From: Echinicola marina
Lineage (GTDB): Bacteria; Bacteroidota; Bacteroidia; Cytophagales; Cyclobacteriaceae
Direction: 5' to 3'
Assembly: GCF_020463795.1 (NCBI RefSeq)
Contig: NZ_CP080025.1
Span: forward strand, 5,535,001-5,599,000
DNA: 64,000 bases
The translations under genes were made by a program, and so were the position numbers. Below, in pieces: positions 1,251 through 32,995 of the stretch (position 1 is its first letter; every line of letters starts with the position of its first letter). The notes under the pieces are model-generated. The model did no database searches. It worked only from the letters and a program-made list of their open reading frames with translations, and was not told the origin of the DNA.

Positions 1251-1266
1251 GTTAAACGTTTTAGCT
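1251..1266 (-). promoter_or_regulatory. LacI-type operator candidate, GH2 upstream region
   Basis: On the minus strand it reads AGCTAAAACGTTTAAC, with a palindromic core AAACGTTT and the central CG typical of LacI-family operators. It is 84 bp upstream of the GH2 start codon. It matches the sites at 1521, 20855, 21275, 32742 and 32958. Confidence 0.6.
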
Positions 1267-1520
1267 ATTTGCTAAAAAATCATCAATCTTCACTGTTCTA
1301 CCTATCATAACTTGATCTCCATTCCTTAAATCACACTAAAACTAATCCCAACCTCTTCTAGTCTTTTACATAGCATCCACATTCAAAAAAGCATTGTAAA
1401 TACTTAAATCCCTGTAATTATTAAAAGATGGCATCATTTACTTATTCATCTATCACATCGTTCATTATTACCATCTTACATTAGTTTTCACTTTAAGATA
1501 CTTCAGTAACGAACGATTAG

Positions 1521-1536
1521 ATTAAACGTTTTAGCA
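1521..1536 (-). promoter_or_regulatory. LacI-type operator candidate, distal GH2 site
   Basis: On the minus strand it reads TGCTAAAACGTTTAAT. It directly follows TTACATTG, a degenerate -7-like box, as the sites before the SusD and GH38 operons follow theirs. If that box is used, the GH2 leader would be about 360 nt long. Confidence 0.55.
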
Positions 1537-1670
1537 ATGTAATAAAAAGATTTGAAAATTTAATTTTAGGAAAATAAATAATACTAATCATCTGACTTTT
1601 GGACTCTTGGGTATTTGACAATGAGCACAAATCCAAGCCTCAAATTAAGCCTGTCTTTATACCTAAATCA

Positions 1671-2996
1671 TCATTTCACCAGTTTTCGCTCCAAATCCTC
1701 CAATGATACTCCCTTGGTTTCAGGCATGATAAAATGAGTAAACAAAAGCTGCAAGACCATAAAGCCTGCGAATAAAACAAAGACTATCCAAGGAGCAAAA
1801 GAGTTGATCAGTACAGCTCCGAAAAGAGCAATAATGGCGGCAAACACATTTAATAAGCCTGATCCCCATGCCTGCCCAAACGATCGAATCTCATTTGGGA
1901 AAATTTCAGACAAGAATACCCAAATGACCGCTCCCTGACCAACAGCGTGTGAGGCAATAAATAGGAGCATGAATATCAATTTAAACATGGCCGGCATAGA
2001 AAAGTAGAAACCATATGCGATACAGAACAGACTAATGATATAGCCCACTGAACCAATGTACATCAGTAGCTTCCTTCCTGCCCTATCGATTAAATAAATC
2101 CCCACAAATGTAAAAATCAAATTGACCAGCCCTACCGAAACAGAACTGAGGAGTGAATCAGAAGTGGCCAGTCCTGCCTTTTCTAAGATTTCTGGAGCGT
2201 AGAACAAGACAAAACTGATACCCGAAAATTGATTAAAAAAAGCCATCAAAAAGGATATCATCAATATTTGTCGGTATTTTCCTGAAAACAAACGTACAGT
2301 GCTTGGTTTATTGCTTTCGGTACGCAAAAGCATTTGAGCAAAAGCCTGTTCGGCCTCGCTTTTGGACATAGACAAAGTCAAAACCCGTCTACCTTCCTCA
2401 TATCTATTCCGACTGACAATCAACCACCTAGGACTCTCAGGGACAAAAGGTATAAAAACAGTAAATAACAATGCAGGAACCAATTCGATTCCCAACATCC
2501 AGCGCCAATCATCTTCTCCTCCTGTTCCATCCAATAGGTAATTGGATAAGAAAGCCATCAAAATCCCAAAAACAATATTAAACTGAAAGAGCATCCCCAA
2601 CTTCCCTCTGTCCCGGGCTGTCGCAATCTCTGAAATATAGGCAGGCGCAGCGATAGATCCTACTCCGGCTCCCAGACCTCCTACAAACCGAAAAAAAGAA
2701 AATGAATACGGATCATTTACCAGAGCAGAACCAATGGCCGAAACCGTAAAAAAAACACCAACCCAAAGCACGGTGGACTTTCTCCCCAGCCTTTCGGTGG
2801 GATATCCACCTAACAAAGCTCCCACAACAGTTCCCCAAAGCGAAATGGAAATAATGAAAGTACCATGAAACCAATCCGAACTTTCCCAAAGGCTTTTCAA
2901 GGGAAGATTTACTCCAGAAATAACCACAGAATCAAAACCAAAGAGAAAGCCTACCGTCGACACAATAAATGCGTAACGCAACAACTTATTTTTCAT
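1671..2996 (-). CDS. MFS sugar porter (sugar:H+ symporter type)
   Basis: This 441-residue inner-membrane transporter has about 12 hydrophobic segments. Sugar-porter signatures are present: YPTERLGRKS after TM2, VPESPRWLI before the central loop, LIDRAGRKLL after TM8 and MPETKGVSLEDLE at the C-terminus. The family imports monosaccharides with protons. The gene lies 35 bp after the LacI regulator and presumably shares its transcript, so it probably imports the sugar released by the region A and B enzymes. Mannose is a guess based on the neighbouring GH92 and GH38 genes. Length and motifs are normal for the family. Confidence 0.9.
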   Translation of the reverse strand: MKNKLLRYAFIVSTVGFLFGFDSVVISGVNLPLKSLWESSDWFHGTFIISISLWGTVVGALLGGYPTERLGRKSTVLWVGVFFTVSAIGSALVNDPYSFSFFRFVGGLGAGVGSIAAPAYISEIATARDRGKLGMLFQFNIVFGILMAFLSNYLLDGTGGEDDWRWMLGIELVPALLFTVFIPFVPESPRWLIVSRNRYEEGRRVLTLSMSKSEAEQAFAQMLLRTESNKPSTVRLFSGKYRQILMISFLMAFFNQFSGISFVLFYAPEILEKAGLATSDSLLSSVSVGLVNLIFTFVGIYLIDRAGRKLLMYIGSVGYIISLFCIAYGFYFSMPAMFKLIFMLLFIASHAVGQGAVIWVFLSEIFPNEIRSFGQAWGSGLLNVFAAIIALFGAVLINSFAPWIVFVLFAGFMVLQLLFTHFIMPETKGVSLEDLERKLVK

Positions 2997-3031
2997 GGGG
3001 CAAAATAAAGGTTCGTGTCCCCAATTTTATA

Positions 3032-4069
3032 CTAAGATTTATCTTTTGCAACTTTTTCTGTCGAACCTCGCAAAATCAAGGTGGTAGCCAAGGAAACCAT
3101 GCGGTTCACCTTTTGCTTATCATCCTGTCTCAACCTATCCAATAAGGTGTCAATAGCTGTCTGGGAAATCTCTTCTATGGGCTGTGCAATAGCTGAAATT
3201 CCTGGCTTGTAGATCCTAAAAAGATCATGATCATCAAATGACACAATGGCTAAGTCTTCAGGAATTTTCAGTCCCAATTCCCCAATTGCCTCCAGGCCAC
3301 TTATTCCTAAATAATTGGTCCCAAATAACACTGCATCAAAACCCTGGTGGTTTTTAAGGATATCCGTGATTTCCTTCACATATTCGGAATGCTCTACACG
3401 AAACGGAAGAGGAAAAACATAGGCTTCCAGGCCATTATCTTCCATGGCTTCCTTATAACCAATTATTCGATCCTCTTTCTCAGGTTTGTCAAGTGCCAGT
3501 GCTATAAAGGCAATCTTTTTAAAGCCCTCTTTGACCAAATGGACTACGGCATTATAAACCCCTTCCTCATTATTTACCATAACCACATCGGCAGACATAT
3601 TGCGGAATTTCCGGTCCAAAAGCACCACATCCATCCCTTTTTCCACTAAATCTCGAATATCTTCCTCCATGCCCATGGTAGGCGCTATGATGCAGCCATC
3701 TACGCCCAAAGTCTGGAACATGGTCAAAAACTCTTTGGCCCGCTTAATATCATTCTCCGTACTACAATAAACTATCTTATAACCGTTTTGATGGGCTTTT
3801 TCCTCAATCTTTTTGGCAATACTGGCAAAAAACGGATTGGAAATATCCTCTACCATAAGGCCGATGATATTGGTCTTTCCTGTCCTTAAGCCCTTTGCTA
3901 CCATATTGGGTATATACCCCTCCTCCTTCACTTTTTTCAAAACCTTGGCAACAAGCTTATCACTGATCCGCTTTTCCTTGGCTTTGCCGTTAAGAATAAA
4001 TGAAATCGTGGTGGTGGATATATTGAGTTGTTTTGCTATGTCACTGATGGACACCTTGCTTCTGGCCAT
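3032..4069 (-). CDS. LacI family transcriptional regulator
   Basis: This 345-residue protein starts with the LacI helix-turn-helix (SISDIAKQLNISTTTISFIL, about residues 6-25) and the hinge helix region (NMVAKGLRTGKTNIIGLMV). A periplasmic-binding-protein-like effector domain follows (ISNPFFASIAKKIEE, then GVDGCIIAPT, then IVSFDDHDLFRI). It is probably a repressor released by a sugar ligand. Its likely targets are the CGTTTTAGC-type sites in this window, found upstream of the SusD-led operon, the GH38-led operon and GH2. It sits between a sulfatase and a sugar porter, as a local regulator would. The ligand is not determinable from the sequence. Confidence 0.92.
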   Translation of the reverse strand: MARSKVSISDIAKQLNISTTTISFILNGKAKEKRISDKLVAKVLKKVKEEGYIPNMVAKGLRTGKTNIIGLMVEDISNPFFASIAKKIEEKAHQNGYKIVYCSTENDIKRAKEFLTMFQTLGVDGCIIAPTMGMEEDIRDLVEKGMDVVLLDRKFRNMSADVVMVNNEEGVYNAVVHLVKEGFKKIAFIALALDKPEKEDRIIGYKEAMEDNGLEAYVFPLPFRVEHSEYVKEITDILKNHQGFDAVLFGTNYLGISGLEAIGELGLKIPEDLAIVSFDDHDLFRIYKPGISAIAQPIEEISQTAIDTLLDRLRQDDKQKVNRMVSLATTLILRGSTEKVAKDKS

Positions 4070-4201: not shown

Positions 4202-5728
4202 TTATTCACTCATATCATCAAAATTTCTATTGCTTACTTCCCGAAATTCTTCCAAGGATTTATCATCACCATATTTCTCCATCAATTTTTTAAGATCCTC
4301 CTTTAATTTAACCACTATATCAGCATATTCTTGATTATCGATAATATTATTGAGTTGTTCTGGATCTTTCTTATTATCATATAACTCCCATTCATCAATA
4401 TCATAATAGAAATGCGCCAGGGTATAACGATCTGTTCTTATACCATAATGAGGCTGTACATGGTGCCACATAGGAAACTCATAATAATGATAGTAGAGGG
4501 CATTTCTCCACTTCTCAGGTTGTTCGCCCTTCAATATGGATGCAAAACTTTCTCCATGGGTCCTATGATCTGTTTCTATACCAGCGATATCTAGTAGTGT
4601 AGGTGCTAAATCAATATTACCAATAATAGCATCACTTTCTGATCCAGCCCTTACTTTATTGGGATATCGAACTATAAAAGGCATTCGAAGTGATTCCTCA
4701 TAGATAAACCGCTTATCAAAAAATCCATGGTCTCCAAGATAGAATCCCTGATCTGAAGTCAAAACGATCATTGTATTGTCGGTTAATCCATTTTCATCAA
4801 GATAATCCAAAACCCTTCCCACATTGTCATCTACAGATTTTACTGTAGCTAGATAGTCTTTTATAAAACTTTGGTATCTCCACTTTTTGGTCTCTTCTCT
4901 ACTCATTCCTTCAGGCGTGTTAATAAAAAGATGTTCCATTTCCATTTCAGTATCACCTGCAGTTTTTTCCCTTCCTTTGTAATTATCGTTAAAGGTTGAT
5001 GGATAGGGCATATCACGATCTTTCCATAGATCTGAATAAATGCTATCTCTTACCCAAGAGCGGTGTGGAGCTTTAAATTGCAACAACATCAAAAATGGTT
5101 TTTTGGACTTTTCAGTATTCTTAAGCCAATTTAGAGCAAAATCTGTGGTTATATTGGTGGCATACCCCTCCCTTTTAACTTTTTTGCCATTTTCATTATA
5201 AACAGGATCCCAATAAACTCCCTGTTGCCCTCCAATCTGATGATCATGATATTTATAGGTATCAAAACCTTTTGGCTCACTATTTAGATGCCATTTTCCA
5301 AAAAGGCTGGTGGCATATCCAGCTTCTTGAAATTCCTGCGGAAAAGTCCATTGGCTAGCATCAAACTCACCTCCTTCCCAGTTTTTATAATAGCCGTTGC
5401 GATGGCTATAATCTCCTGTTAGAATTGCAGCCCTGCTTGGACCGCAAATAGCATTTGTACATAATACATCATGAAACAACATTCCTTCCGTGGCTAGTCT
5501 GTCCATATTTGGTGTATCGGCAATGTCTTTAAACCGATTATTATAAGCAGTAATCGCCTGTGTCGTTAAATCATCGGCCATTATATAAATGATATTGGGA
5601 CGATCATTTATCTGTCCTTCTTTATTACTTACTTTTTCCACATTCCCACAGGATTCAAAAAAAAGCCCCAAAAGGGAAAATAAAAAGAGTTTTAATAACA
5701 AAATCCTTCTTGTAAATGTATTTCTCAT
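4202..5728 (-). CDS. Type I sulfatase, exported lipoprotein
   Basis: This 508-residue arylsulfatase-family (S1) enzyme has a hydrophobic N-terminus ending in a possible lipobox Cys27 (LFFESC). The conserved metal Asp pair is D52-D53 (IIYIMADD). The CxPSR signature is CGPSR at residues 95-99, so Cys95 would be converted to formylglycine. GKWHL and SDQGFYLGDHGFFDKR are further active-site blocks. The enzyme would remove sulfate esters from a glycan in the periplasm or at the outer membrane. Its place between the ROK and LacI genes of the mannosidase operon suggests that the substrate glycan is sulfated. No formylglycine-generating enzyme is present in the window. Confidence 0.92.
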   Translation of the reverse strand: MRNTFTRRILLLKLFLFSLLGLFFESCGNVEKVSNKEGQINDRPNIIYIMADDLTTQAITAYNNRFKDIADTPNMDRLATEGMLFHDVLCTNAICGPSRAAILTGDYSHRNGYYKNWEGGEFDASQWTFPQEFQEAGYATSLFGKWHLNSEPKGFDTYKYHDHQIGGQQGVYWDPVYNENGKKVKREGYATNITTDFALNWLKNTEKSKKPFLMLLQFKAPHRSWVRDSIYSDLWKDRDMPYPSTFNDNYKGREKTAGDTEMEMEHLFINTPEGMSREETKKWRYQSFIKDYLATVKSVDDNVGRVLDYLDENGLTDNTMIVLTSDQGFYLGDHGFFDKRFIYEESLRMPFIVRYPNKVRAGSESDAIIGNIDLAPTLLDIAGIETDHRTHGESFASILKGEQPEKWRNALYYHYYEFPMWHHVQPHYGIRTDRYTLAHFYYDIDEWELYDNKKDPEQLNNIIDNQEYADIVVKLKEDLKKLMEKYGDDKSLEEFREVSNRNFDDMSE

Positions 5729-5862
5729 CTCATTTAGTTCTTAATCTAATGCTAGTATTTTGCACGTTATATTTCTTGAAAATTCAATCCTCTGACTAAA
5801 TTTCCCTCATGATCTATTTTATAGACTTCTTACAGCCCATTCGACACTTCGCCTATATTCAA

Positions 5863-6990
5863 CTAAAATTTGGCTTGAGAATGGCTGGAAACTATTTCCA
5901 ACTCACGAAGCGAAAAGGCATAGGCTCCTATAGCAACTGCCTCATTTGTACTTAACCTCGAAAGACCTATAGGAATCTTCTTCTCTGGACGGTAAAGCAC
6001 TTTTTCACCCTGGCTAAATGGCACCTCTATTTCATAAACTTTATCCGTAATAAATTCCTGCCAAGACGCTTTGTCATCCACATTATAAACAGTGGAAACA
6101 ATTCTGGGTACTTTTATACCTTGATCCATTTCTATCACCCCATTTAAATGTTCTATCACTTTAGGTAAAATCAAAGAAGATGCCCCAGCTATTCCTCCTC
6201 CTATCACCACTGGCGTATCAATCAAAGTCATCACATGCGCCAATGACTCCCCAATAACAGTAGCCATATTTTCAAATGCCTGATAAGCTATTTCCTGCTC
6301 ACCTGGTATTTTCCCTATCGCAATATCATAGATCTCCCTAGGACTTAACACCCGTTTATCTTTGGTCTTCGCTTTATAGTATTTTTCTATTGCCCTAATG
6401 CTCACAGACTCTTCCGCTATCAAGTTTTGGTTGAGCAGATTTCTGGTCAACCATATTTCTCCTGATGCAGAATTATCCCCTCTACAAAGCTGACCATTCA
6501 TCACCAACCCTCCACCAAACCCTGTCCCCAATGTGACCCCAAACAGGTTATTATATTTTCGGTCAATTCCTAAAGCACTTAGTTTCTGGTTGATTTCAGG
6601 TAGAAAACCACCCATAGCCTCTCCATAAGTAAATAGATCTCCATCATTATTGATAAAAACAGGAAGACCAAACACTCTTTTGAGCATACTCCCCAAGGCC
6701 ACCCCTCCCCTAAAGGCCTGGAAATTAGGTGGATCACCAATGATACCGTTTTTATAGTCCGCAGGACCAGGAAAGGCCATACTAATCGCCACAGGAGCAT
6801 CAGGCAACATTTCCCTAATTTCCTTAAACACCTCGCAAATAGTCCTAAGGCATTTATCCAATTCCCCGGCATGGGAAGGTCTCTTTATTGGGCTTATTAT
6901 TTCATTTCCTGCCTGATACGCTGAAAAAACAAAGGTGGTTCCTCCTGCGTCCAAGGTCATGACCACCCTTTCATCACTATAAATATTCAT
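5863..6990 (-). CDS. ROK family protein, probable sugar kinase
   Basis: This 375-residue cytoplasmic protein has the ASKHA/ROK phosphate-binding motif LDAGGTTF near the N-terminus, the block GVTLGTGFGGGLVMNGQ near the middle, and VVIGGGIAGAS in the adenosine region. The usual ROK zinc motif (CxCGxxGCxE) is absent; the matching stretch reads RGDNSASGEIWLTRN without cysteines. It could phosphorylate an imported hexose such as mannose or glucose. With no helix-turn-helix it is not a ROK repressor. It is longer than typical 300-residue kinases. Gaps of 190 bp and 134 bp on either side hold no clear terminator. Confidence 0.85.
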   Translation of the reverse strand: MNIYSDERVVMTLDAGGTTFVFSAYQAGNEIISPIKRPSHAGELDKCLRTICEVFKEIREMLPDAPVAISMAFPGPADYKNGIIGDPPNFQAFRGGVALGSMLKRVFGLPVFINNDGDLFTYGEAMGGFLPEINQKLSALGIDRKYNNLFGVTLGTGFGGGLVMNGQLCRGDNSASGEIWLTRNLLNQNLIAEESVSIRAIEKYYKAKTKDKRVLSPREIYDIAIGKIPGEQEIAYQAFENMATVIGESLAHVMTLIDTPVVIGGGIAGASSLILPKVIEHLNGVIEMDQGIKVPRIVSTVYNVDDKASWQEFITDKVYEIEVPFSQGEKVLYRPEKKIPIGLSRLSTNEAVAIGAYAFSLRELEIVSSHSQAKF

Positions 6991-7180
6991 TTTTGTTTTT
7001 AAATGGTATGGTTATATTTTCTGATAAAAAAGTCAAAGCCAAAACAAGCGATACCTTACTATATCTGGGCACACAAACAGATTGGTTTTCAAGGGAACGG
7101 GGATCGGCATGAACAGCTTCCCCCCATTACTTAACAATCCTCTTATTTACTTTTCTTCATTTGTCCTGTTACCTACAGAC

Positions 7181-9508
7181 TTATTGACGAACTTCAGTGG
7201 TAAATGAAGAAGGTTCTTCCAATTCAGAAAGTGAAAATGGCCTATCTTCTTCGGCTACAGCACGCGTTTTATTAGGAATATTATCCATCACAAAGGAAAG
7301 TTTTCCTCCATTGATAATCTGGGAATAGGTAATATAATTTTTAGTAAAATCCCGACCATTCAATGTCGCTGATTGGATATAAACATTGTCCGCATTATTG
7401 TTCTTGGCCTCCACCACGAATTCCTTTCCATCTTCCAAAGTAAGGGTAACTTTTTCAAACAAAGGACTTCCAATCACATACTGATCAGTCCCTGGACAAA
7501 CGCTATAAAAACCCATTGCACTCAGTACATACCAAGAAGACATGCCACCCTGATCCTCATCTCCAGGAAAACCTTGTGGAGTGGGATGATAAAGTTCACT
7601 CATAATCTTTCTTACCCTATGCTGGGTTTTCCATGGCTGTCCTATATAGTTGTATAAATAAGCTACATGCTGTACAGGCTGATTACCATGCGCATATTGC
7701 CCCATATTGGCCAATTCCATTTCCCGCATTTCGTGGATCACTTGCCCATAATGCCCCACATCATAGACTGATGGCATTGAAAAGAAAGTATCCAATTTTT
7801 TGGTAAACGGCTCCACTCCTCCCATCAAATTCACCAGTCCATTAATATCATGAAAAACCGACCAAGTATATTGCCAGGCATTGGCTTCTGTAAAAGGATC
7901 TCCCCATGAAATAGGGTTGAAGTCTTCTCCCAAAGCCCATTCCCCATTCCTTTTTTTGCCACGCATAAACCCGGATTCTGGGTCATAAATGTTCTTATAA
8001 TTGTACATCTGACGACCAAATATTCGCGCATAATATTCATTACCTATGGATTTGGCAATTTGATAACCACAGAAGTCATCATAGCTGTATTCTAGGGTTT
8101 TTGCGGCACTTTCCCCAACTACCTTATATGGAATATAGCCCAGCTCAAACCAGTCCTTATGAGCTTCCCTTCCATTGGAACCTCCCCAAGGTCCTTTATT
8201 GGTGATTTCATGGAAATAGGCTTCCAAGGCCTCTGTTGCATCAAATCCGCCCACTCCCTTTACATGTGCATCCGCCAAAAGAGAAATGGCATGATTACCG
8301 ATCATGATACCGGAAGTTCCGGGACAAGACCATGTCGGCAAGAACCCGCTTTGCTCCTGTGCGTCCAAAAGAGACTGCATATACCTTGCCTGCATAGTAG
8401 GGTGCAATATATTGCTCAAGGGAAACTGCGCCCTAAAAGTATCCCAAAACCCATTGTCTGTATACATATATCCTTCGTGGATTTTACCATCGTATGGACT
8501 GAAATAATAAGGGTCTCCCGCTTCGTTGATTTCAAAGAACCGGTGTGAAAACAAGTTGGCCCTAAAGAGGCAGGCATAAAATGTGGCTCGGTCTTTTTCA
8601 CTTCCTCCCTCCACTAGCACACGGCCCATTAATTCATTCCATTTATCCTTTGCTTCTTTTTTGGTTTGCTCCAGGTGCTTATGTCCTTCCAATTCCTGCT
8701 GCATCGTCAAATTCGCTTGTGCTGGACTTATATAAGAAGAAGCAATTTTCACCTGCACCACCGTACCTGGTTTGAACTGAATATAAGCTCCTTTACCATC
8801 ACCTTCGGCTTCCTTCTCCCCCTTTTGAACACTGTTTTCTTTGTTTTCCCAAGTACCATATGACACAAATGGCTGATCAAACTGCAATTCAAAATATGCC
8901 CTGAAATTATCCGGCACCAATAGTCCATTATTCACCCATCCAGTGATTTTTCTGGCCTTAGGGTCAATTTTAACCGAACTTTGTTCAGTATATCCATCAA
9001 ATACCAAGAATGCTTCTTCCCCTTTTGGAAAAGAAAAACGCATGTGCCCTCCTCGGGTGACAGGAGAGATTTCTGCCTGAATGCCATTGTCCAGTTCCAC
9101 ACTGTAATAATGGGGATGAGCCGTTTCATTTTCATGTTTAAAGGCCGTGGCACGTTCATTTTCATTTACAACCAATTCTCCGATAACGGGCATCAAAGAA
9201 AAAGTAGCATAATCATTTACCCAAGGACTACACTGATGAACTTGCTGGAAGCCTCGTATGGTTTCCGCTTTATATTGATATTTCCATCCATCTCCATTTT
9301 TACCTGTTTGTGCAGAAAAAGAATGAACCGGAAAAGGCATAGCAACTGTAGGATAAGTATTTCCATAACTCAAAGACCACTCTGAATCGGTCCCCTGCCT
9401 AGTATCAACCAAGCTCACCAAATCAGGTGTCTTTTTTGGAGCCGTGAAGGCACTGCTCAGGATTACAAAGCAGGCCATCAGGCTCAATTGAATAGGTTTG
9501 ATGTTCAC
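7181..9508 (-). CDS. GH92 alpha-mannosidase, secreted
   Basis: This 775-residue protein has a signal peptide (ILSSAFTAPKK). It follows the GH92 plan: an N-terminal beta-sandwich (VDTRQGTDSEWSLSYGNTYP) and an (alpha/alpha)6 barrel. Conserved barrel blocks are GFWDTFRAQFPL, LPTWSCPGTSGIMIGNHA and HVAYLYNYIGQPWKTQ. GDEDQGGMSSWYVLSAMG near residue 645 carries the conserved acidic active-site residues of the family. GH92 enzymes are calcium-dependent exo-alpha-mannosidases, most often alpha-1,2 or alpha-1,3. The gene starts 33 bp after a SusC gene, so it is probably the periplasmic enzyme for what that transporter brings in. A second GH92 is at 27583-29931. Confidence 0.95.
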   Translation of the reverse strand: MNIKPIQLSLMACFVILSSAFTAPKKTPDLVSLVDTRQGTDSEWSLSYGNTYPTVAMPFPVHSFSAQTGKNGDGWKYQYKAETIRGFQQVHQCSPWVNDYATFSLMPVIGELVVNENERATAFKHENETAHPHYYSVELDNGIQAEISPVTRGGHMRFSFPKGEEAFLVFDGYTEQSSVKIDPKARKITGWVNNGLLVPDNFRAYFELQFDQPFVSYGTWENKENSVQKGEKEAEGDGKGAYIQFKPGTVVQVKIASSYISPAQANLTMQQELEGHKHLEQTKKEAKDKWNELMGRVLVEGGSEKDRATFYACLFRANLFSHRFFEINEAGDPYYFSPYDGKIHEGYMYTDNGFWDTFRAQFPLSNILHPTMQARYMQSLLDAQEQSGFLPTWSCPGTSGIMIGNHAISLLADAHVKGVGGFDATEALEAYFHEITNKGPWGGSNGREAHKDWFELGYIPYKVVGESAAKTLEYSYDDFCGYQIAKSIGNEYYARIFGRQMYNYKNIYDPESGFMRGKKRNGEWALGEDFNPISWGDPFTEANAWQYTWSVFHDINGLVNLMGGVEPFTKKLDTFFSMPSVYDVGHYGQVIHEMREMELANMGQYAHGNQPVQHVAYLYNYIGQPWKTQHRVRKIMSELYHPTPQGFPGDEDQGGMSSWYVLSAMGFYSVCPGTDQYVIGSPLFEKVTLTLEDGKEFVVEAKNNNADNVYIQSATLNGRDFTKNYITYSQIINGGKLSFVMDNIPNKTRAVAEEDRPFSLSELEEPSSFTTEVRQ

Positions 9509-20848: not shown

Positions 20849-20854
20849 TGTTAA

Positions 20855-23772: not shown

Positions 23773-26187
23773 TTAAAGCCGAAAGGAATTCCTGCCTTCA
23801 TTCAGCTGATATGTTTTTCCCTCCCAAATAAACATGCCGGATGTTTTGGTTGGAATTGATATATCAATTATCCACTCAGCCCCGGATTTTTGGTAGTTGA
23901 CAGCGATCTTGCCATTTGGATGAGGAATCTCTCCTCCTACATCTGAGAGATCTCCCAAATGTGGTTCAACTTTAATAGAAGAAAATCCAGGGGCATTACT
24001 GTCAATACCAAGTACCATCCTGTAAAATTCAATGTTTGGACTACTTGACCAAGCATGACATTCCGAACGGGTGTATTCTAAATTCGAATATTCTGGCCAT
24101 GTGGTCATTCCTTCATCCATACTTTTCCGCCATACATCCAACCACTGCATATAATCATTTCCAAAGCCTCCTTTTTCCAAAGCCTGAAACAGATAATACT
24201 TGAAATACAAGGTGCATTCCGTAAGTGAACTATCTGTGAGCAGGCTGTTACAAACCGCCTGCTCCTTTTCTTTATCAACCAAGCCTGTTAAAATGGCCAA
24301 TGAATTGGCGTGTTGGGAAAAGTGTTTCTTATCCTGGGTATCAGCAAATAAATTCCTCGATGAATCCCAATATTTCCTCACTATGGTCTCTTTAAGTTGT
24401 TTTGCCTTTTGCTCATATTGCTTGGCAAAAGAAGCCAAGCCCAAATGTTCTTCTAATTTGGCTGCCCACTGGAAAGCCCATAGCAGTTGCATATCGATAA
24501 TTGCCGAGCTTCCATCTGCTCCTTTAGGCGGAACACCCACTGACCAACCTTCTCCATTCGCCCAATCCACAAAATTCCAGTAAGGTGTGTTCTTCAAAGA
24601 ACCGTCGCTTTGTTGGTATTTGCTGAAAAATTCCAAGATTGCCCTGGCTCCAGAAAGCTTATCCTTGATAAAAGCTTCATCAGGCCTATACATCCAATAA
24701 TCATACAGCAAACCAATATACCATAAAGAGAAAGTAGAAATTACCTGGGTTCCTTTGGTCGGGTAACGACTCAAGGTCACTCCTTCCGGCAATCGCGAAT
24801 GGTCCATTAGTGTTAAGGCATTCCGTGCAAGACGATCATCTGTAGAATTGTAATAAGTAATCATGGCCTGAATACGGGTATCCCCAATATATTGCAGCTG
24901 CTCATAATAAGGACAATCCCAATAAGTGTCCATGGCGCAGAGCCGGGCCGTTCTCCAGCCAATCCCAAGAATTTTATCTATTTCAACATTATCAGTTTTA
25001 AACTGGGACGCTTGCTGAAATGGATAGCCCGTAAAAGTCCCATAAATATCAGAAATGGTCAATGGCTCGTCTTTAGTTTCAACTGATAATTCTATATATC
25101 GAAAGGTCCGCCAATAAAGTGTCGTAAATGATTGCCCCATTGTTCCGTTTGAAATCAAACTATCCCTACGACCATAGAAAACCTTACCCTCCACTTCATT
25201 ACGATTACTTTTTTGAGCACCATAATCGGTAAATCCATCCATTAATGTTTCTGCATATTTTATCCCGATCTTTGCGTCTTTTCCTTCCTTAAATTTCAGC
25301 GTTAAATAAGCATTTGTTAGGTAAGTTTGATCCAATAAAAGACTCACCTTAGAATGTCCTGGTATGGTGATGGCATCTTTTTCCAAAGGAAAGTCATTTG
25401 ATATTTGCATACCCTCCACTTTTCTCAAACTCGGAATCCTATCGTATTTCATTTCCATCTGCGGCAAAGTACTTGGTACCAGCATCCAACCAAATCCGTC
25501 TGAATCACCTTTAAGCTTTCCTTGCAATAAAACCGCTGCTTTGGGCCATGAACTATCATCCAAATCCGGGTCACTCCAATTCATCACTGACTTATTCATA
25601 TCGACCATTTCACCTGTACTTGCCGCAAAAATGCTTGGTGCAGGCTGATAACCTTTATCTCTGACACCTTTCCAACTCCCATCGGTATTGAGTATTTGTT
25701 CCCTTTCTGAATCACCCTGCAAAATAAAGCCCGTCCGGAAGCTGACCTGCGCTTCCGGCCTCAACTCCGACTCATTCCATACCAAGGCGGTCACATTGTT
25801 TCTACCTTGCTGAAGGTGAGGAGCTAAATCAACCGTTTCATAATTCCAAAAATATGTATCGCCACGAGCTGGCCCCAATGAGACCAATTTGCCATTCACA
25901 TAAAGTTTATATCGATTATCTGCAGAAACATGGACAATAAAATCTTCTGGGACTTGATCAAGCGCCAAGTCTTTTCTAAAATAATAAACACCATAGGCAT
26001 AGCCATCTGAACCTTGAACAGAAATCCAGTTGGCATTCCATGGCTTTTGATCATTCCCCTTATCTGAAACTTGACCAAAAGCACTGATCAAAAAAAGGTG
26101 AACAAAAACCATCCATAAGGCGATGCGCTTGCCCCCTTCCTTTCTTTTAATCACAGGGATTATCATCTGCTTACAACTCATACACAT
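23773..26187 (-). CDS. GH78-type alpha-L-rhamnosidase-like enzyme
   Basis: This 804-residue exported protein has an N-terminal sugar-binding jelly roll typical of bacterial rhamnosidases (WNANWISVQGSDGYAYGVYY, then YKLYVNGKLVSLGPARGD). An (alpha/alpha)6 barrel follows. The motif WDCPYYEQLQYIGDTR near residues 420-437 holds the acidic residues expected in the GH78 active site. A C-terminal beta-sandwich (FSSIKVEPHLGDLSDVGGEI) completes it. GH78 enzymes release terminal alpha-L-rhamnose by inversion. It is rather short for the family. The frame opens at 26187; ATG 26166 (MIIPV) is an alternative. It follows the SGNH gene by 6 bp. Confidence 0.85.
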   Translation of the reverse strand: MCMSCKQMIIPVIKRKEGGKRIALWMVFVHLFLISAFGQVSDKGNDQKPWNANWISVQGSDGYAYGVYYFRKDLALDQVPEDFIVHVSADNRYKLYVNGKLVSLGPARGDTYFWNYETVDLAPHLQQGRNNVTALVWNESELRPEAQVSFRTGFILQGDSEREQILNTDGSWKGVRDKGYQPAPSIFAASTGEMVDMNKSVMNWSDPDLDDSSWPKAAVLLQGKLKGDSDGFGWMLVPSTLPQMEMKYDRIPSLRKVEGMQISNDFPLEKDAITIPGHSKVSLLLDQTYLTNAYLTLKFKEGKDAKIGIKYAETLMDGFTDYGAQKSNRNEVEGKVFYGRRDSLISNGTMGQSFTTLYWRTFRYIELSVETKDEPLTISDIYGTFTGYPFQQASQFKTDNVEIDKILGIGWRTARLCAMDTYWDCPYYEQLQYIGDTRIQAMITYYNSTDDRLARNALTLMDHSRLPEGVTLSRYPTKGTQVISTFSLWYIGLLYDYWMYRPDEAFIKDKLSGARAILEFFSKYQQSDGSLKNTPYWNFVDWANGEGWSVGVPPKGADGSSAIIDMQLLWAFQWAAKLEEHLGLASFAKQYEQKAKQLKETIVRKYWDSSRNLFADTQDKKHFSQHANSLAILTGLVDKEKEQAVCNSLLTDSSLTECTLYFKYYLFQALEKGGFGNDYMQWLDVWRKSMDEGMTTWPEYSNLEYTRSECHAWSSSPNIEFYRMVLGIDSNAPGFSSIKVEPHLGDLSDVGGEIPHPNGKIAVNYQKSGAEWIIDISIPTKTSGMFIWEGKTYQLNEGRNSFRL

Positions 26188-26193
26188 AAAAAA

Positions 26194-27579
26194 TTATTGA
26201 ACAGGACGGATCTCAACCTTCCTTTTGAGCGGTTGATTCACCTTATAGATCACATCAGCTACGGTTTCCAACTGATCTTCATAGGTTTTGCGAATGGCTT
26301 CAAAGCGCATGGCCTCATAGGTTTCCATTTTGCTGCGGGCAAAACCATTGTCCTTAGATATCTTTCTGGCTACTTCAATCGCATGTTGGTCATCCTCGAA
26401 CATCATATCCAGGTCTTTGAACACATCATATTGCATCCAATAATATTCGCGGATTTTATTATCAATATTCCGGATGGTGTTCGCCAAATTCATCACGGTC
26501 CATGCCTGTTTGTATTGCGGTGTAGTTTTGATTGCTGCCAAGTTGATTCCTTTGGCTAGATCATTTCCAGTCCATTTGCCTATCAACTCTCCATCTATCA
26601 TCAGTTCGTAATTTTGATCACCAGATAAATTTTGAACTTGAAAAATTTCGCGGTTAAACTCTTCCATAAAAGGCACCACCTCTAATGCCAATGATTGCTT
26701 CTGCTCATTTCCCCACATTTTGGAAACTGTATCTACCGGAAATGGCAGAGACTTGGCCAAGTATTCAAAACTGAGCTTTTCCCCTTCTACTTTAAGATTG
26801 GAAATCGTCGCATTTTCTTCTTTAATGATTGAACTGCTCTCAGGATCAAGATTAATTTCAGCCACTGGAGCTTCCAAGCCTTGGGCCTTCAAAAAAAGAT
26901 AAGCCATGACCAAATGTCCTCCGTTGCCCGGATGGATCCTATCTGGGCCGGTTATGGTAAATGCAGGGTCTTCTTTTTGCCCCTTCAGATTAATCGCTTC
27001 CATTGGATAATACAAATCCACAAAATCCCAATCCTGCTTCTCTGCTTCTTCTTTCTGAAAAGCCACAATCCTTTCCATGGCTTTACTTTTTCCTGGAAAA
27101 TGATTGTTTTCATTCTCCATAGTCTCATCATAAGGAGATGAACTCATGATAATTTTTCTCAGTTTAGGTGCTGCTTTTAACTGGTCAATGATACCCTGGA
27201 AATCCTTATAGGATTTCTCCACTCGCTCATCTGCGAATTTATCGGGGTTATCCCAGTTGTATTCAAAATAACCTGTATCATTCATCCCAAAGGTGATCAC
27301 AACAGCATCAGGATCCAATGCCAAGGCATCCGACTCCAAGCGATCATTGATCTGACCAGACACATCTCCGCCAATTCCCACATTCCTGATCTCAATCCGC
27401 CGATCTGGAAAATGTGTCATATAATACAGCCAGATATAAGTTTCATAATATCCCGCTTCTGTAATGCTGTTTCCCACAAAGGCCACTTTATCTCCTTTAG
27501 AAAAAGGTTTGATGGACTGGGACATGGCTATGCTCGCGACAAGAAATGTCGCTATCGTTAAGGAAAATATTTTTTTCAT
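26194..27579 (-). CDS. Secreted SGNH/GDSL hydrolase
   Basis: This 461-residue protein has a signal peptide (FLVASIAMSQ). SGNH blocks are present: block I VAFVGNSITEAG with Ser38 as nucleophile, block II NVGIGGDVSGQ with the oxyanion glycine, block III TFGMNDTGYF with the oxyanion Asn, and block V GPDRIHPGNGGH with the catalytic Asp/His. The C-terminal 200 residues form an extra domain often seen in Bacteroidota GDSL proteins of this length. It is probably a carbohydrate deacylase. It lies 3 bp after GH92 and 6 bp before GH78, so it belongs to the operon. Confidence 0.87.
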   Translation of the reverse strand: MKKIFSLTIATFLVASIAMSQSIKPFSKGDKVAFVGNSITEAGYYETYIWLYYMTHFPDRRIEIRNVGIGGDVSGQINDRLESDALALDPDAVVITFGMNDTGYFEYNWDNPDKFADERVEKSYKDFQGIIDQLKAAPKLRKIIMSSSPYDETMENENNHFPGKSKAMERIVAFQKEEAEKQDWDFVDLYYPMEAINLKGQKEDPAFTITGPDRIHPGNGGHLVMAYLFLKAQGLEAPVAEINLDPESSSIIKEENATISNLKVEGEKLSFEYLAKSLPFPVDTVSKMWGNEQKQSLALEVVPFMEEFNREIFQVQNLSGDQNYELMIDGELIGKWTGNDLAKGINLAAIKTTPQYKQAWTVMNLANTIRNIDNKIREYYWMQYDVFKDLDMMFEDDQHAIEVARKISKDNGFARSKMETYEAMRFEAIRKTYEDQLETVADVIYKVNQPLKRKVEIRPVQ

Positions 27580-27582
27580 GGT

Positions 27583-29931
27583 TTATTTTAGGTTATAATT
27601 TGGTGTTGCTCCCATGACCAATTCCAGTTCTCCTCCTGCTTGAATATCACTAAAATCAATAAATGGGTGCTTCAATTGTTTTCCGTTAAGTTGAATTTTC
27701 TGGATGTATTTGTTTTCGGGACTATTATTAGTGGCGGTCACCGTAAAAGTCTTGGCCTTCGCATAAGTAGGATCAAGCTGAAAGCTTATCTGATCAAACA
27801 CTGGACTGGTGATATCCACCCTGGTGTCTCCCGGACATACCTGATACAGTCCTGCAGAAGCCAAGACATACCAAGCAGACATTTGCCCGACGTCTTCATT
27901 CCCTACCAAGCCCTCCACACTGTTTTTATAACCACGCTCGCAAATCAATCTGGTCCATTTTTGGGTCAACCAAGGTGCCTCCACATAATTAAATAAAAAT
28001 GGCACATGGTGAACAGGTTCATTGGCATGGTTATAATATTCATTCCACATTAGGTTTTTAGGAGCTTTTTCGAAAAAATCAGTCAGGTCCTCCCTTACGG
28101 CTTCTTTTCCTCCCATTAACTTAATCATTCCTTTGATATCATGAGGTACAAACCAACCTTGCTGATAAGCATTACTTTCAATACTTCCGTACCATTCCAC
28201 CAATCGCCCTTCCTCAGGCCAAGCATCAAAACTACCGTCTTCCCTTCTTGGCCGGAACCAAGCAACCGAATCATCAAAAATGTTCTGATAACTTTTTGAC
28301 CTATCGAAGAAGGTTTTTGCTATACTTTTCTCTCCCATATCTGCTGCCATCATTGCCGTACACCACTCCGTGTAGGCATATTCTAAGGTATGGGAAATAC
28401 TTAAGCCTCCTGGCGTATAACCCTTTGCTCCATTTCCAAATTTCTCACCAGAATTGACCATGTACTGGAGGGCTTTTTCCGTATCAAAATCTCGAATTCC
28501 TTTACTGTAGGCATCTGCAATAACGGACACAGCTGGATTACCAATCATGCAGCCACTGTAAGCATTCAGCAGCTCCCAACGCTCCAAATATTTCTTGCCA
28601 CTTTGGTCAGCCATGGTCACCAATGAATTGATCATATCATTGACCAATACTGGGTTAATGATAGTCTGTAAAGGAAACTGACTGCGAAAAACATCCCATC
28701 CACTGAAAATGGTTCTCTTGGTAAAGTCACTGGAATGATGTGCCTGACCATCGGCCCCCATATACTTCCCATCAACATCTTCATACATCCGCGGGTCAAT
28801 CATGCTATGATACAGGGCTGTATAAAAAACCGTTTTCTGCTCATCAGTTCCTCCATGTATGGCCACCTTAGAAAGTGCTGAATTCCATAGTGCTTGGGCC
28901 TTCTCCTTTACCTTTTCAAAATCCCAGCCTTTGATCTCAGTTTCAAGGTTGTTTTTTGCCCCTTCCATACTCACAAAGGAGATCCCTGTTTTCACCAAGA
29001 TAGCTTCATCTTCCGTTGTTTCATATTCGGCAAAGAACCCCATATGTTTCCCTTGGGCTTCTTTCACCTTTCTTTTTACTACAGCTTCAGCTATTCGCTG
29101 CTGATAGCGCTCACTTTCTACCGCTTCTCTTTTCCTACTCCAGTCCGATGGGATATCCGCTTTCCAAACCCCATACTCCTTAAATGGCTTGCTGAATTGG
29201 GCATAGAAATACACGGTATAATCCGAACTCCCATCACCATTTCCCCAGCCACCTCCTTCTGGAGGACACTTCATCCATCCACGAATGGTTTGATCATTCA
29301 CTACCTCCAACTGCTGCAATGTAGAAGTGCCGCCCACTCTTCTGGCCAAATCAATCTGGATACGGGACTGCTTGTTTTCCGGGAAAATAAATTTCAACAT
29401 TCCACTATGCGGGGCCGCGGTCATTTCAGCCTTTATATTACTTTCAGTCAAATCAACCTTATAATATCCCGCCTCCGCATATTCACTAGACTTGTCATAG
29501 GTTGAACGATATCCATCTTGCGGCTGATCCATCGGACCTGCTACGGTCTGTAATTCACCGGTTGTGGGCATCACCAGGAAATTCCCCAGGTCACCATACC
29601 AGCCTACCCCGCTCATCTGGGTAAAGGCAAATCCCTCAATCGAGGTATGCTCATAACTGTAGCCTGAGCCATTATCCCCGCCAGTAATGGTGTTGGGACT
29701 TACTTGCACCAATCCATAAGGAGTAGCCGCACCGGGAAAAGTTTTTCCAAGTCCATGATAGACTCCAGCAGCATCAGTACTGGTACTGGCCCCAATAAAG
29801 GGATTCACATATTGTACTGGATTAAGTGCTTCAGTTTTTTGCGAACTCATTTGCGCAAATGTTGGTATGCTAAGCGCCAGCATGGCCAAGGCCAACAAAT
29901 TAATTCTCAAGGTCATTATAGGTTTATTCAA
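27583..29931 (-). CDS. GH92 alpha-mannosidase, secreted (second copy)
   Basis: This 782-residue protein has a signal peptide (ALSIPTFAQMSSQ). GH92 features are VNPFIGASTSTDAAGVYHGL in the N-terminal sandwich, IFSGWDVFRSQFPLQ, YSGCMIGNPAVSVIADAY and HHVPFLFNYVEAPWLTQKW. GNEDVGQMSAWYVLASAGLY near residue 680 carries the conserved acidic residues. It differs markedly from the GH92 at 7181-9508, so the two are old paralogs that probably cut different alpha-mannosidic linkages. It is 6 bp after GH38 and 3 bp before the SGNH gene. Confidence 0.95.
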   Translation of the reverse strand: MNKPIMTLRINLLALAMLALSIPTFAQMSSQKTEALNPVQYVNPFIGASTSTDAAGVYHGLGKTFPGAATPYGLVQVSPNTITGGDNGSGYSYEHTSIEGFAFTQMSGVGWYGDLGNFLVMPTTGELQTVAGPMDQPQDGYRSTYDKSSEYAEAGYYKVDLTESNIKAEMTAAPHSGMLKFIFPENKQSRIQIDLARRVGGTSTLQQLEVVNDQTIRGWMKCPPEGGGWGNGDGSSDYTVYFYAQFSKPFKEYGVWKADIPSDWSRKREAVESERYQQRIAEAVVKRKVKEAQGKHMGFFAEYETTEDEAILVKTGISFVSMEGAKNNLETEIKGWDFEKVKEKAQALWNSALSKVAIHGGTDEQKTVFYTALYHSMIDPRMYEDVDGKYMGADGQAHHSSDFTKRTIFSGWDVFRSQFPLQTIINPVLVNDMINSLVTMADQSGKKYLERWELLNAYSGCMIGNPAVSVIADAYSKGIRDFDTEKALQYMVNSGEKFGNGAKGYTPGGLSISHTLEYAYTEWCTAMMAADMGEKSIAKTFFDRSKSYQNIFDDSVAWFRPRREDGSFDAWPEEGRLVEWYGSIESNAYQQGWFVPHDIKGMIKLMGGKEAVREDLTDFFEKAPKNLMWNEYYNHANEPVHHVPFLFNYVEAPWLTQKWTRLICERGYKNSVEGLVGNEDVGQMSAWYVLASAGLYQVCPGDTRVDITSPVFDQISFQLDPTYAKAKTFTVTATNNSPENKYIQKIQLNGKQLKHPFIDFSDIQAGGELELVMGATPNYNLK

Positions 29932-29937
29932 AGTAAA

Positions 29938-32514
29938 TTATTGATGGTATTCCTTTATTCTTAGCGTCCTCACCCCAAAACGAGGAATAGACAAATGAAT
30001 TTTATTTTGTGATTTTCCAGAGACCTCAAGTTCCTGGATAGCGTCGCCATTAAGTTCAATAAGTTCGGCACCGGCAAAGTCCCCATCCACCAAGATGGTT
30101 GATGCTTTCTCAGTTCCTTCGGCATTAAACAATCGCACCAGCAAATCCCTTCCTGCAAAATGTGCAGTGGTAATTTGCCAACCCTTATCTTCCAACTCCA
30201 ACAGGGATTGATGGGCCAAATCCCCAACTGATGAAGTTGATAATTGGGCTTTCAGAGGCTCATCCCATTGAACACTTTCCATCCAGATCCCTGCTTCATC
30301 CCATTTTTCTTGATGAGGTACCAAAGCGTATTTGACATGACTTGGCCCCTCGATTTTATAATTCATCCCCCACAATGCCCTTCCTGAGTATTGAATATTA
30401 AGTGCAAGAGGATGATCTTTGGCATGAGCATAACTGGTGGTATGATCAGAAAACAAGGCTACACCAAGGTTTTCATCTTCATCCATTACATCCACCCAGT
30501 TCAGGATAATATTATTTTTGATACTATCCCAACGGTTAAAAAAGGTAGATTCCAGGTCACTCATGGTCACATCAAATGGCGCATTTTTATATACCTGCTG
30601 CTGATCAAATCCCAATGGAAAGTGTACCAAAAGTTTATAGGCATCATTATAAAATGCCTTTTCTGGGTCTTCTGCTTTATAAACTTCCATTTGCGAATAA
30701 TGACCTATTCCTGGACTACCCTGCCAGTCTATGGTCAGCTCAAAATCAATTTTTCTTTCTCCCTGATAAAAACTCAACAATTGCTCAAATGGATGTTCAC
30801 CTATTTGCCCCTTGACAGAAACAGTGGTCATCAAAGGTCCATTTTCCAATATTTCCACTTTGGCAGGACTATCTGTACTGGATAGAAACTTACCCAAATC
30901 ATAAAAATGGCCTCTAATTTCATTGAAACCTCTATCTGCATGCTGATCAACCAACTCCTTGCCTTTTAGTTTCTTCGCCTTTAGGCTTTCTATTACTCCT
31001 CCTTTAGATGGATCAATGAGCACCTCGTAATAATCTGTATTGACCTGAACTTTACCATTTGGCATTATAAGGGCTTCGGATCCATTCCCCTTGGACATTT
31101 TGGCTTGTCCCAAGCGAAAACTGCTCAAGCCCAATGATCCAACCTTTGCCCTAAACAACAATTTTTTCTCTCCGTTTACAGAAGCCAATTGACTGGGGAT
31201 TTGCTTTCCTTCATTATCAATTACCACCCAGTTTCTATCCTGCAGTTTATCCGCATCCACTTTGATCAATTCTTCTCTTGCAGTCCCTTGGCCATTGAAG
31301 ACATTGATGAATAAGGAGGTTTCTATGTTTGCATCTTCCCTACCCAGTACATCATCTATAACTTCCTCACTGATATCATTGGTAATGCTGGTCCAATCCA
31401 CCACTTTATCAGCCCAGGTTTTGCTTCCTTCCACCCTGTTATATGGCACTATCCAACAATCATGGTGTTGGGCAAGCGTGAGGTTTCTCCATCCTTCGTC
31501 AAATTTTTCCACTGACCATGTCCCAGCAGAATAGGCTTTGGCATAAGCCGCCATTTTTTCTGCCAAGGTGATATTGTTCTCTGCAACACGGACATTTTGT
31601 GCCAATTGCTGCATCACTTGAGCCCCCCAAACCAAGCTAACCAAAACATCTTCTTGACTAAAGTCCCAAACCTCTTCAGCTTCGGATATCACAATGTTTT
31701 CAAAGTAATCGGTCCAAGTCACATAATGTGATGGCCTGTATAAGGGCTGATCTGCCCCCAGCCAAGGCCCACCCTTCCAAGCAGCGTCCTGCAAGCACAT
31801 CCCTACTGGATGCTTTATTCCCTGCTCAAAAGCTGCTTCAATATAGGATTGTCCATTTCCCCATGCCTTTGTCTGCCAAGTAGAATTTGAAGCCAAGGCC
31901 TCGCTCTCATATCTAGGCACGGTTTTGATCAGCGTACCATCAGGTCCTTTCCAATTGACCAGTTCTCCTCCATATGCACGGGTATACCCACCCCAGCAGG
32001 TATTAGGGTTTTTCAATACCGCATATTTAAAGCCGAAAGACTTTAGAATCTGCGGTAAGGCACTTGTAAAACAAGGTTCTTCGGACGAATAAGTGGTATA
32101 GGAAAACTGAGGAAAATGTTCCCTCATATGACGGATACCAAGATCGAATTGTCTGATAATGGATTCCCCAGAAATGTTAAAAAGATAAGCCTGCCCATAA
32201 GACGGGTTGACAATATCTATTCTCTCGGCAAATCCTGGCTGAATCATGGCTTTTTGGAAGTTCTGATAAGCTATAGGATCGTAAACTTTTACGGAATCCC
32301 AAGTTTCTGGTTCAATTTCAAGGTTGATCTTCCATTCAGGGTGCATGGAAAGTTGATCTAGCATAAATTGGGTTTGCCAACGAGGATAATGACCATAGAT
32401 ACCTCCATGGTAACCGTCTACAAAATAGGCATCTTGAGCCAGAGCACTCAACAAACTCAAAATAAATACAGCAAAAAAACTAAATACCGCATTACGGATT
32501 CTACTTGGTCTCAT
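29938..32514 (-). CDS. GH38-like alpha-mannosidase with non-canonical metal site
   Basis: This 858-residue exported protein has a signal peptide (ILSLLSALAQ). The GH38 catalytic barrel reads YFVDGYHGGIYGHYPRWQ, then LEIEPETWDSV, then SALPQILKSFGFKYAVLKN. The three-helix region has LTLAQHHDCWIVPYNRVEG, and beta-sandwich domains with KGGVIESLKAKKLKG follow. GH38 enzymes are zinc-dependent retaining alpha-mannosidases. Two usual zinc ligands differ: the HxD motif reads HGG (His36 kept, Asp replaced by Gly), and the nucleophile Asp of the DxFGHS block aligns with Glu145 or Glu146 in SSEEPCFTS. It may be a distinct subfamily, a different specificity or a weak enzyme. First gene of the operon. Confidence 0.83.
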   Translation of the reverse strand: MRPSRIRNAVFSFFAVFILSLLSALAQDAYFVDGYHGGIYGHYPRWQTQFMLDQLSMHPEWKINLEIEPETWDSVKVYDPIAYQNFQKAMIQPGFAERIDIVNPSYGQAYLFNISGESIIRQFDLGIRHMREHFPQFSYTTYSSEEPCFTSALPQILKSFGFKYAVLKNPNTCWGGYTRAYGGELVNWKGPDGTLIKTVPRYESEALASNSTWQTKAWGNGQSYIEAAFEQGIKHPVGMCLQDAAWKGGPWLGADQPLYRPSHYVTWTDYFENIVISEAEEVWDFSQEDVLVSLVWGAQVMQQLAQNVRVAENNITLAEKMAAYAKAYSAGTWSVEKFDEGWRNLTLAQHHDCWIVPYNRVEGSKTWADKVVDWTSITNDISEEVIDDVLGREDANIETSLFINVFNGQGTAREELIKVDADKLQDRNWVVIDNEGKQIPSQLASVNGEKKLLFRAKVGSLGLSSFRLGQAKMSKGNGSEALIMPNGKVQVNTDYYEVLIDPSKGGVIESLKAKKLKGKELVDQHADRGFNEIRGHFYDLGKFLSSTDSPAKVEILENGPLMTTVSVKGQIGEHPFEQLLSFYQGERKIDFELTIDWQGSPGIGHYSQMEVYKAEDPEKAFYNDAYKLLVHFPLGFDQQQVYKNAPFDVTMSDLESTFFNRWDSIKNNIILNWVDVMDEDENLGVALFSDHTTSYAHAKDHPLALNIQYSGRALWGMNYKIEGPSHVKYALVPHQEKWDEAGIWMESVQWDEPLKAQLSTSSVGDLAHQSLLELEDKGWQITTAHFAGRDLLVRLFNAEGTEKASTILVDGDFAGAELIELNGDAIQELEVSGKSQNKIHLSIPRFGVRTLRIKEYHQ

Positions 32515-32741
32515 TGGGTTAATTATTAATTTTATTGATCCTGTACATTTGGCTTTATATCCAATGCCAAGGAATAATATTTACAATAATCAGTTTATAA
32601 AAAAGGCCTGAAAAGTACTAAGCCGGTCTTTTAGAATGTAAACCCATCGTTTTAAAGCTATTTCTGAACACCAACCGACTACCAGTATTTCACACCTTTT
32701 TTCCTGATATTATTGGCAAAGTAATAAAATAAAACACAAGT

Positions 32742-32757
32742 TGCTAAATCGATTAAC
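32742..32757 (+). promoter_or_regulatory. LacI-type operator candidate, GH38 promoter-proximal
   Basis: On the plus strand it reads TGCTAAATCGATTAAC, one base away from the other sites at the conserved core and palindromic around AATCGATT. On the minus strand it lies 17 bp upstream of TTACTTTG, a near-consensus -7 box for GH38. Confidence 0.5.
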
Positions 32758-32957
32758 TATTTTTTACCAAAACACTCAGCCCCTGTAAACACTTAAAAAC
32801 CAAGTCTGAGCTACCAGTTTGGATTTCAGTAAAATCAAAAACCATCTCTGTCGCTCAGAAACCTAACTTTAACAAAGTTTATAAAAAACTTTCCTTTAAT
32901 CCATGCCTCAACAATACTCTATAATCACATAATTATAGTTTTCTAGGTGAAAAATTA

Positions 32958-32973
32958 TTTAATCGTTTTAGCA
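32958..32973 (-). promoter_or_regulatory. LacI-type operator candidate, GH38 distal site
   Basis: On the minus strand it reads TGCTAAAACGATTAAA, directly after AATTTTTG, a one-mismatch -7 box. The layout copies the one before the SusD operon. Confidence 0.6.
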
Positions 32974-32979
32974 AAAATT

Positions 32980-32995
32980 AGTTAAAACGATCAAT
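32980..32995 (+). promoter_or_regulatory. LacI-type operator candidate, paired with the 32958 site
   Basis: On the plus strand it reads AGTTAAAACGATCAAT, a weaker match. It faces the neighbouring site with centres about 22 bp apart, roughly two helical turns, which would place two repressor dimers on the same face. Confidence 0.4.

Follow-up and report, generated by a model that had tools for sequence, protein, structure and literature searches.

Clusters of SusC/D-type genes for glycan use are, in the textbook account, controlled by hybrid two-component systems (HTCS), SusR-like proteins, or pairs of extracytoplasmic function (ECF) sigma and anti-sigma factors. The locus described here appears to rely on a LacI/GalR-family protein. 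It lies in a 64,000-nucleotide stretch of Echinicola marina DNA (contig NZ_CP080025.1, positions 5,535,001 to 5,599,000; hereafter the window), which is part of a 5.69-Mb genome on a single contig. On the strength of comparative sequence analysis, we consider it quite probable that the LacI protein encoded in the window is the local repressor of three glycan units, which it would control through six paired operators.

The local sugar regulons of LacI/GalR proteins collected in RegPrecise (PMC4052901) offer the nearest comparison. As in those regulons, the regulator combines a helix-turn-helix (HTH) with a periplasmic-binding-like domain, resides among its own sugar genes, and has more than one CG-centered, even operator per operon. 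Such linkage of a regulator with its target sugar genes is seen in several of the genomes studied here. In contrast to those regulons, the operators in this genus are asymmetric, the regulator gene lacks a site in front of it, a second site lies far from the start of each unit, and the targets are SusC/D glycan units. The survey, in which a single taxonomic group stands for the Bacteroides phylum, reports a central CG in most even palindromes, finds more than 75% of LacI sites between 30 and 140 bp upstream and about 7% farther away than 200 bp, and describes 72% of LacI factors as autoregulated.

Control of alpha-mannose glycan clusters has been described for HTCS_Man-1/2/3 of Bacteroides thetaiotaomicron. 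Those regulators are HTCS proteins that act on direct repeats of two 16-bp sites with a 5-bp spacer (PMC3878776), whereas the present locus has a LacI protein and near-palindromes. A domain scan of 19 proteins encoded in the first 35 kb found no HTCS domain. ManR (BT2103) of Bacteroides also governs a mannoside pathway regulon but belongs to the GntR family (PMC3878776). A literature search of titles and abstract openings, which left subscription journals mostly outside, returned no paper describing this LacI glycan regulon; the words GH92 and LacI do occur in PMC5306329 (on Gramella flava). The predicted LacI-type regulon is real and well supported, and it is an ordinary kind of gene control. 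With it comes an operator that can be put to the test, proposed for a LacI repressor acting on a SusC/D glycan cluster with further occurrences in distant Bacteroidota (Mariniphaga, Mucilaginibacter). Furthermore, the regulon should make regulon membership predictable in relatives, and it raises the question of specificity between paralogues.

Paired sites in three gaps

An earlier note on this DNA proposed seven operator-like sites, and all seven motif sequences are present where it placed them (Table 1). Four sites (at 1252, 1522, 21276, and 32959) match WGCTAAAACGWWTAA exactly, while those at 20856 and 32742 carry one mismatch each and that at 32980 carries two. The predicted operator is a CG-centered near-palindrome with a strong half, TGCTAAAAC, and a weaker half, GWWTAA. 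Its central CG is present in all 13 genus sites, 7 from the window and 6 from a sister species (genome G245).

A test with less circularity comes from a matrix containing no letter from the window's genus. It was built from 22 sites (12 distinct) located before homologous genes or beside a LacI homologue in other genera, sites that had been found via a window-derived matrix and then selected, so that it is not wholly independent. Kept out of it were L079 19280, L094 6513 and 6557, L095 10238, L289 9839, and L290 4162; the in-gene matches L077 885, L177 6788 (the same as L291 14666), L182 15034, and L184 13478; and sites beside ROK-linked LacI homologues or homologues of 46-48% identity. With this other-genera matrix, the top six positions in the window are six of the reported sites (16.3-21.2). 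The next match scores 15.6 at 42793, and 32980 is twelfth with 10.2. Among the 26 window gaps longer than 40 bp, those before the GH2, SusD-led, and GH38-led units each hold two sites scoring at least 16 and the other 23 hold none, which bears out the claim that other gaps lack a full match. Simulated sequence of equal intergenic length (400 runs) held a mean of 0.0025 such sites and at most 1. When the entire 64 kb was simulated 60 times, a score of 19.5 came up at one site; therefore, a single high score alone proves little. Elsewhere in the genome the matrix was applied to two stretches, one of 15 kb (L076) with no site of at least 16 and one of 20 kb (L127, around the LacI paralogue L041 discussed below) with a single such site.

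Searches based on the motif itself give a more mixed picture. The exact pattern GCTAAAACGWWTAA occurs 5 times in the genome, 4 of them inside the window, and its reverse 0 times. A 13-site profile (the 7 window sites and the 6 of the sister species) yielded 15 genome matches at E<=10, 7 of which are the window sites; this result is partly circular because the profile was trained on those sites, and 150 of 5105 first-look candidates were scored. With up to 3 mismatches, the window contains 23 matches against 15.8 expected, a number reached in 4 of 100 shuffles. The earlier note held that an equal frequency at random AT-rich sites would speak against the regulon. At high stringency this objection does not hold; at up to 2 mismatches of TGCTAAAACGWWTAA there is no genome-wide enrichment (70 matches versus 91 for the reversed pattern). 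Consensus counting at 2-3 mismatches was dropped as a test because it is too loose to decide the matter.

Conservation in the sister species points in the same direction as the matrix. G245 encodes a LacI that is 94% identical to that of the window and has six sites, two per corresponding gap. In the GH2 gap and likewise in the SusD gap, the two species agree at 31 of 32 site bases, compared with 266 of 454 and 298 of 513 surrounding aligned bases, respectively (58-59%). In both species the distal sites are 354-444 bp away from the start codons, and the spacing within the GH2, SusD, and GH38 pairs (270, 420, and 216 bp in the window; 258, 437, and 316 bp in G245) has no common value. Six of the seven reported sites are thus firm predicted operators. 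The site at 32980, which had been counted as an equal member, does not keep that standing given its score and rank, and no third site scoring at least 13 was found in the GH38 gap of G245.

The linked LacI and its counterparts in other genera

The window LacI has an N-terminal HTH (PF00356, residues 7-55, 34.1 bits against a cut-off of 27) and a C-terminal periplasmic-binding-like effector domain (PF13377, PF00532, and PF13407, all above cut-off). A LacI of at least 61% identity and a leading SusD of at least 61% identity occur in the same 5 of 295 family genomes, with the cut set after the lists had been viewed and the next values being 57% and 44%. The LacI proteins of G000, G245, G036, G177, G156, and Mariniphaga group together as one clade (100/100) in a 32-protein tree, and this clade adjoins ROK-linked LacI copies. 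An exact-pattern search of 290 genomes found matches in 63, led by G000 and G156 with 5 each and G177 with 4, then G047 and G161 with 3 each and G245 and G036 with 2.

Several of these genomes repeat the arrangement seen in the window. In G177 and G156 (LacI 61%), TGCTAAAACGATTAAC stands before the SusD unit and before an lgt gene of that cluster. It is also present before a GH2 gene on a different contig. This GH2 is 69-71% identical to the part present in the window, and the site starts 65 and 45 bp, respectively, before its open reading frame (ORF). The SusD site of G156 is covered by the ORF when the latter is called from the first start codon. Likewise, in G036 (LacI 70%) both the SusD unit and a GH2 relative of 44% identity have TACTAAAACGATTTAG in front of them.

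Beyond the family, a scan of genome contigs with SusD as query gave 101 relatives, of which 80 were retained. Among them are orthologues of 48-60% identity in ten more records, from Mariniphaga, Paludibacter, Mucilaginibacter (4), Niastella (2), Dysgonomonas, and Niabella. All ten (L177-L186) keep the gene order SusD, DUF5004, DUF4961, SusC, SusD, SusC, while flanking genes and upstream sites differ. In Mariniphaga the LacI gene (66%) is divergent from the cluster, and the stretch separating them contains two sites. In all four Mucilaginibacter, TGCTAAAACGATTT lies upstream of SusD and scores 15.5-16.2 with the window matrix. By the same measure, 67 more distant control loci reach at most 12.9; another 3 of the 70 were left out, their match starting less than 400 bases from the end. 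The Mucilaginibacter genomes encode a LacI of 48-50% identity, which in three of the four is on a contig as long as that of the cluster and in the fourth is on another contig together with a SusC piece and a GH92 gene. The operators of G036, Mariniphaga, and Mucilaginibacter are more symmetric than the window halves. In Paludibacter and Dysgonomonas the best LacI matches are distant (32% and 27%), and in Niabella they are interrupted by stops (32%, and 45% over residues 20-210); none of the three has a SusD site. A search of genome contigs with the single LacI as query found no relative.

Thus, the association of LacI, operator, and cluster across genera is strong but not universal. The proposal of a regulon shared by three units gains support from the sister species, from two further family genera, from Mariniphaga, and from a similar arrangement in Mucilaginibacter. 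Judging from conservation and from co-occurrence of the sites with this LacI clade and these genes, both computed directly from the genomes, the linked LacI is the likeliest binder of the six operators. To that extent its designation as the natural binding protein is well supported, and what was overstated is exclusivity, since same-subfamily LacI proteins with similar helices exist and near-identical sites occur elsewhere.

Several observations weigh against assigning the operators to this protein, and some of them favor a paralogue instead. For six of the ten distant SusD orthologues, the region directly upstream is without a site (at most 10.1 with the window matrix), including the two of Niastella, where LacI homologues of 43-46% are present. 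The Mucilaginibacter LacI proteins branch outside both the window clade and the ROK-linked group and are not the closest orthologues. Within the window clade the recognition helix varies (TTTISF in the window, KTAVSF in G036, and KTAVSI in G177), and the G177 operator varies less. The window operator halves are only partly symmetric. In the GH38 gap, where both species have two sites of at least 16, these are shifted and do not align (17 of 48 bases identical). Finally, no site precedes the LacI gene itself (gap 4070-4201, best score -0.7 with the other-genera matrix), and autoregulation in the window was rejected on that score. An operator of its own is absent for the neighboring MFS gene as well.

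The genome holds 11 further LacI genes, and one of these, L041, is 40% identical to the window LacI and could bind the sites in its place or alongside it, with the window LacI sharing that specificity or having split from it. Its recognition helix is nearly the same as that of the window LacI, and it is the only one of the 11 to have the TTxSFxLNGKA helix. A similar site, TGATAAAACGATTTTG, which scores 18.1 with the other-genera matrix, stands before the SusC gene beside L041. Moreover, GCTAAATCGATTAA precedes GH125 in all nine genus members with the gene (11 searched), seven of which lack a LacI match above 42% identity. GCTAAAACGATTAA precedes an IolE-like isomerase gene in five of the six genus loci fetched around exact matches outside the cluster (G000, G245, G220, G047, and G207, with the sixth, in G111, being a different place), again including cases where no LacI exceeds 42% identity. 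G177 and G156 also have a second LacI of the same subfamily (53%) beside the cluster. This fact and the branching of the Mucilaginibacter proteins slightly weaken the case for the window LacI and strengthen that for L041. Against L041 as the binder, the three units and their sites go together with the window-LacI clade. This is so even in genera where a more symmetric site, TGCTAAATCGATTT, belongs to the ROK-linked LacI copies. The SusD-led unit was not found in any genus member without the window LacI. On balance, binding by L041 seems unlikely to account for the six operators.

For the GH125 and isomerase sites, on the other hand, L041 or a protein like it is the probable binder, and therefore the same operators might serve two regulators. 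It is tempting to speculate that two LacI paralogues share one operator code, with an acquired, cluster-linked repressor placed atop a genus-wide mannan network. This reading has a low probability. If it is true, the window units, a distant GH76/GH125/GH92 alpha-mannan locus, and the second lgt (for the lipoproteins of the cluster) would answer to one overlapping signal.

A proposed model for repression

If the linked LacI acts as proposed, it would, when no inducer is present, bind the paired operators before the GH2, SusD-led, and GH38-led units. A mannose-containing sugar released from the glycan might then free the DNA and turn on all three units. The consensus of the -7 box is TAnnTTTG. 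The earlier note described -7-like boxes abutting several sites, and this holds fully for TAGATTTG at 20869-20876, which is a perfect match, while the boxes before 32958 and 1521 agree in five and four of six letters. In both the window and G245, the proximal SusD operator starts within a perfect box and ends 6 bp before the ORF. This operator covers the likely transcription start, and bound LacI would thus be expected to block initiation at the SusD-led unit. A general promoter rule was tried and set aside: of 27 sites, 10 have a TTG 28-30 bases before the operator and 4 have a perfect TAnnTTTG on its edge. These counts are no more than suggestive because many of the sites are homologous copies and the TT before the TG may belong to the operator.

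From these data we infer binding, repression rather than activation, what the inducer is, and how the distal sites function, perhaps by looping or by serving a second promoter. The last of these bears on whether LacI might instead activate at some sites, such as the distal ones. The distance of each second site from its start codon, preserved in both species, is beyond what a simple repressor needs. However, the proximal SusD operator overlaps the -7 box, and members of the LacI family are mostly repressors, so that activation is an improbable account. It is very improbable that the sites arose as chance matches in AT-rich DNA or belong to promoters rather than being operators: the consensus is barely enriched at 2-3 mismatches and the TT ahead of the operator's TG also fits a -7 box, but such an origin is contradicted by the other-genera matrix and the simulations, by conservation in G245, and by the same site preceding GH2 on another contig.

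Gene content and additional sites

Positions 1 to 32.5 kb form one cluster, on the minus strand throughout apart from lgt (Table 1). Its order is GH2, MFS sugar porter, LacI, sulfatase, ROK protein, GH92, SusC, SusD, SusC, DUF4961, DUF5004, and SusD. Past this leading SusD come the divergent lgt and then genes for a SASA esterase, a rhamnosidase, a GDSL esterase, GH92, and GH38. Because GH38 and two GH92 genes are present, the family names suggest an alpha-mannose glycan as the substrate, with rhamnose, ester, and perhaps sulfate groups. The suggestion of about 18 genes is plausible: strand and order give 17 when LacI and MFS join the SusD-led unit and 18 with lgt. The operon ends behind these counts are placed by inference, with gaps of 132-190 bp inside units.

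Table 1. Predicted operators and neighboring genes in the window
Feature	Position	Strand	Basis or counterpart
GH2 glycosidase, N-terminal part (gene continues outside the window)	1..1167	-	
Predicted operator, GH2 unit, proximal, 84 bp from GH2 start	1251..1266	-	Counterpart L073 8751 in sister species G245
Predicted operator, GH2 unit, distal, within a longer block conserved with G245	1521..1536	-	Counterpart L073 9009
MFS sugar porter, adjoins LacI	1671..2996	-	
LacI/GalR-family regulator, predicted binding protein	3032..4069	-	PF00356 and Peripla_BP domains; tree clade
GH92, ROK, and sulfatase genes, after the SusC/D block	4202..9508	-	Domains
DUF5004, DUF4961, SusC, SusD, SusC (remainder of outer-membrane gene block)	9542..19075	-	Order found in distant Bacteroidota
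SusD-like protein (SusD1), leads the SusD-led unit	19100..20848	-	
Predicted operator, SusD-led unit, proximal, with its 5' TG closing a perfect TAnnTTTG box	20855..20870	-	Counterpart L074 8296 in G245
TAGATTTG, candidate -7 box, 2-base overlap with operator	20869..20876	-	Identical in G245
Predicted operator, SusD-led unit, distal, 113 bp upstream of the divergent lgt ORF	21275..21290	-	Counterpart L074 8733 in G245
Second lgt (prolipoprotein diacylglyceryl transferase), possible regulon member	21403..22254	+	Operators directly upstream in two relatives
GH38-led unit: GH38, GH92, GDSL esterase, rhamnosidase, SASA esterase	22217..32514	-	
Predicted operator, GH38 unit, proximal, reverse orientation	32742..32757	+	Same sequence at L074 17626 in G245, unaligned with it
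Predicted operator, GH38 unit, distal	32958..32973	-	G245 site at L074 17942, unaligned with it
Weak seventh site, doubtful operator	32980..32995	+	10.2 with other-genera matrix, rank 12

Copies of lgt were counted in eight genomes. There are two matches each in G000 and G245, one each in the genus members G047, G111, and G234, and four each in G036, G177, and G156. In G177 and G156, one copy shares the strand of SusD within the cluster and has operators immediately upstream.

A number of additional sites were encountered. The best intergenic match outside the cluster, TGCTAAAAGGGTTTTG at 42793, is without the central CG. The near-identical site before GH125 is at L103 9712 (genome position 3374711), and the surrounding locus also contains GH76, a GH92 relative, and SusC/D. 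At L091 10240 (2224240), the exact motif precedes an IolE-like TIM-barrel gene that adjoins a Gfo/Idh oxidoreductase gene, and at L104 9842 (3897842) a motif match lies upstream of the LacI paralogue L032, which has a different helix type. TGCTAAATCGATTTAC is a strong site inside the GH92 gene of Mariniphaga (L177 6788).

The window site at 1521 has a second CG at 13 bp that is not kept in G245. A second CG exactly 13 bp downstream, in a TAAAACG context and as if sites overlapped, also occurs at L082 15921, L093 17269, L097 1598, and L079 19280. A CG spacing of 13 bp is described as a puzzling peak for LacI sites in PMC4052901.

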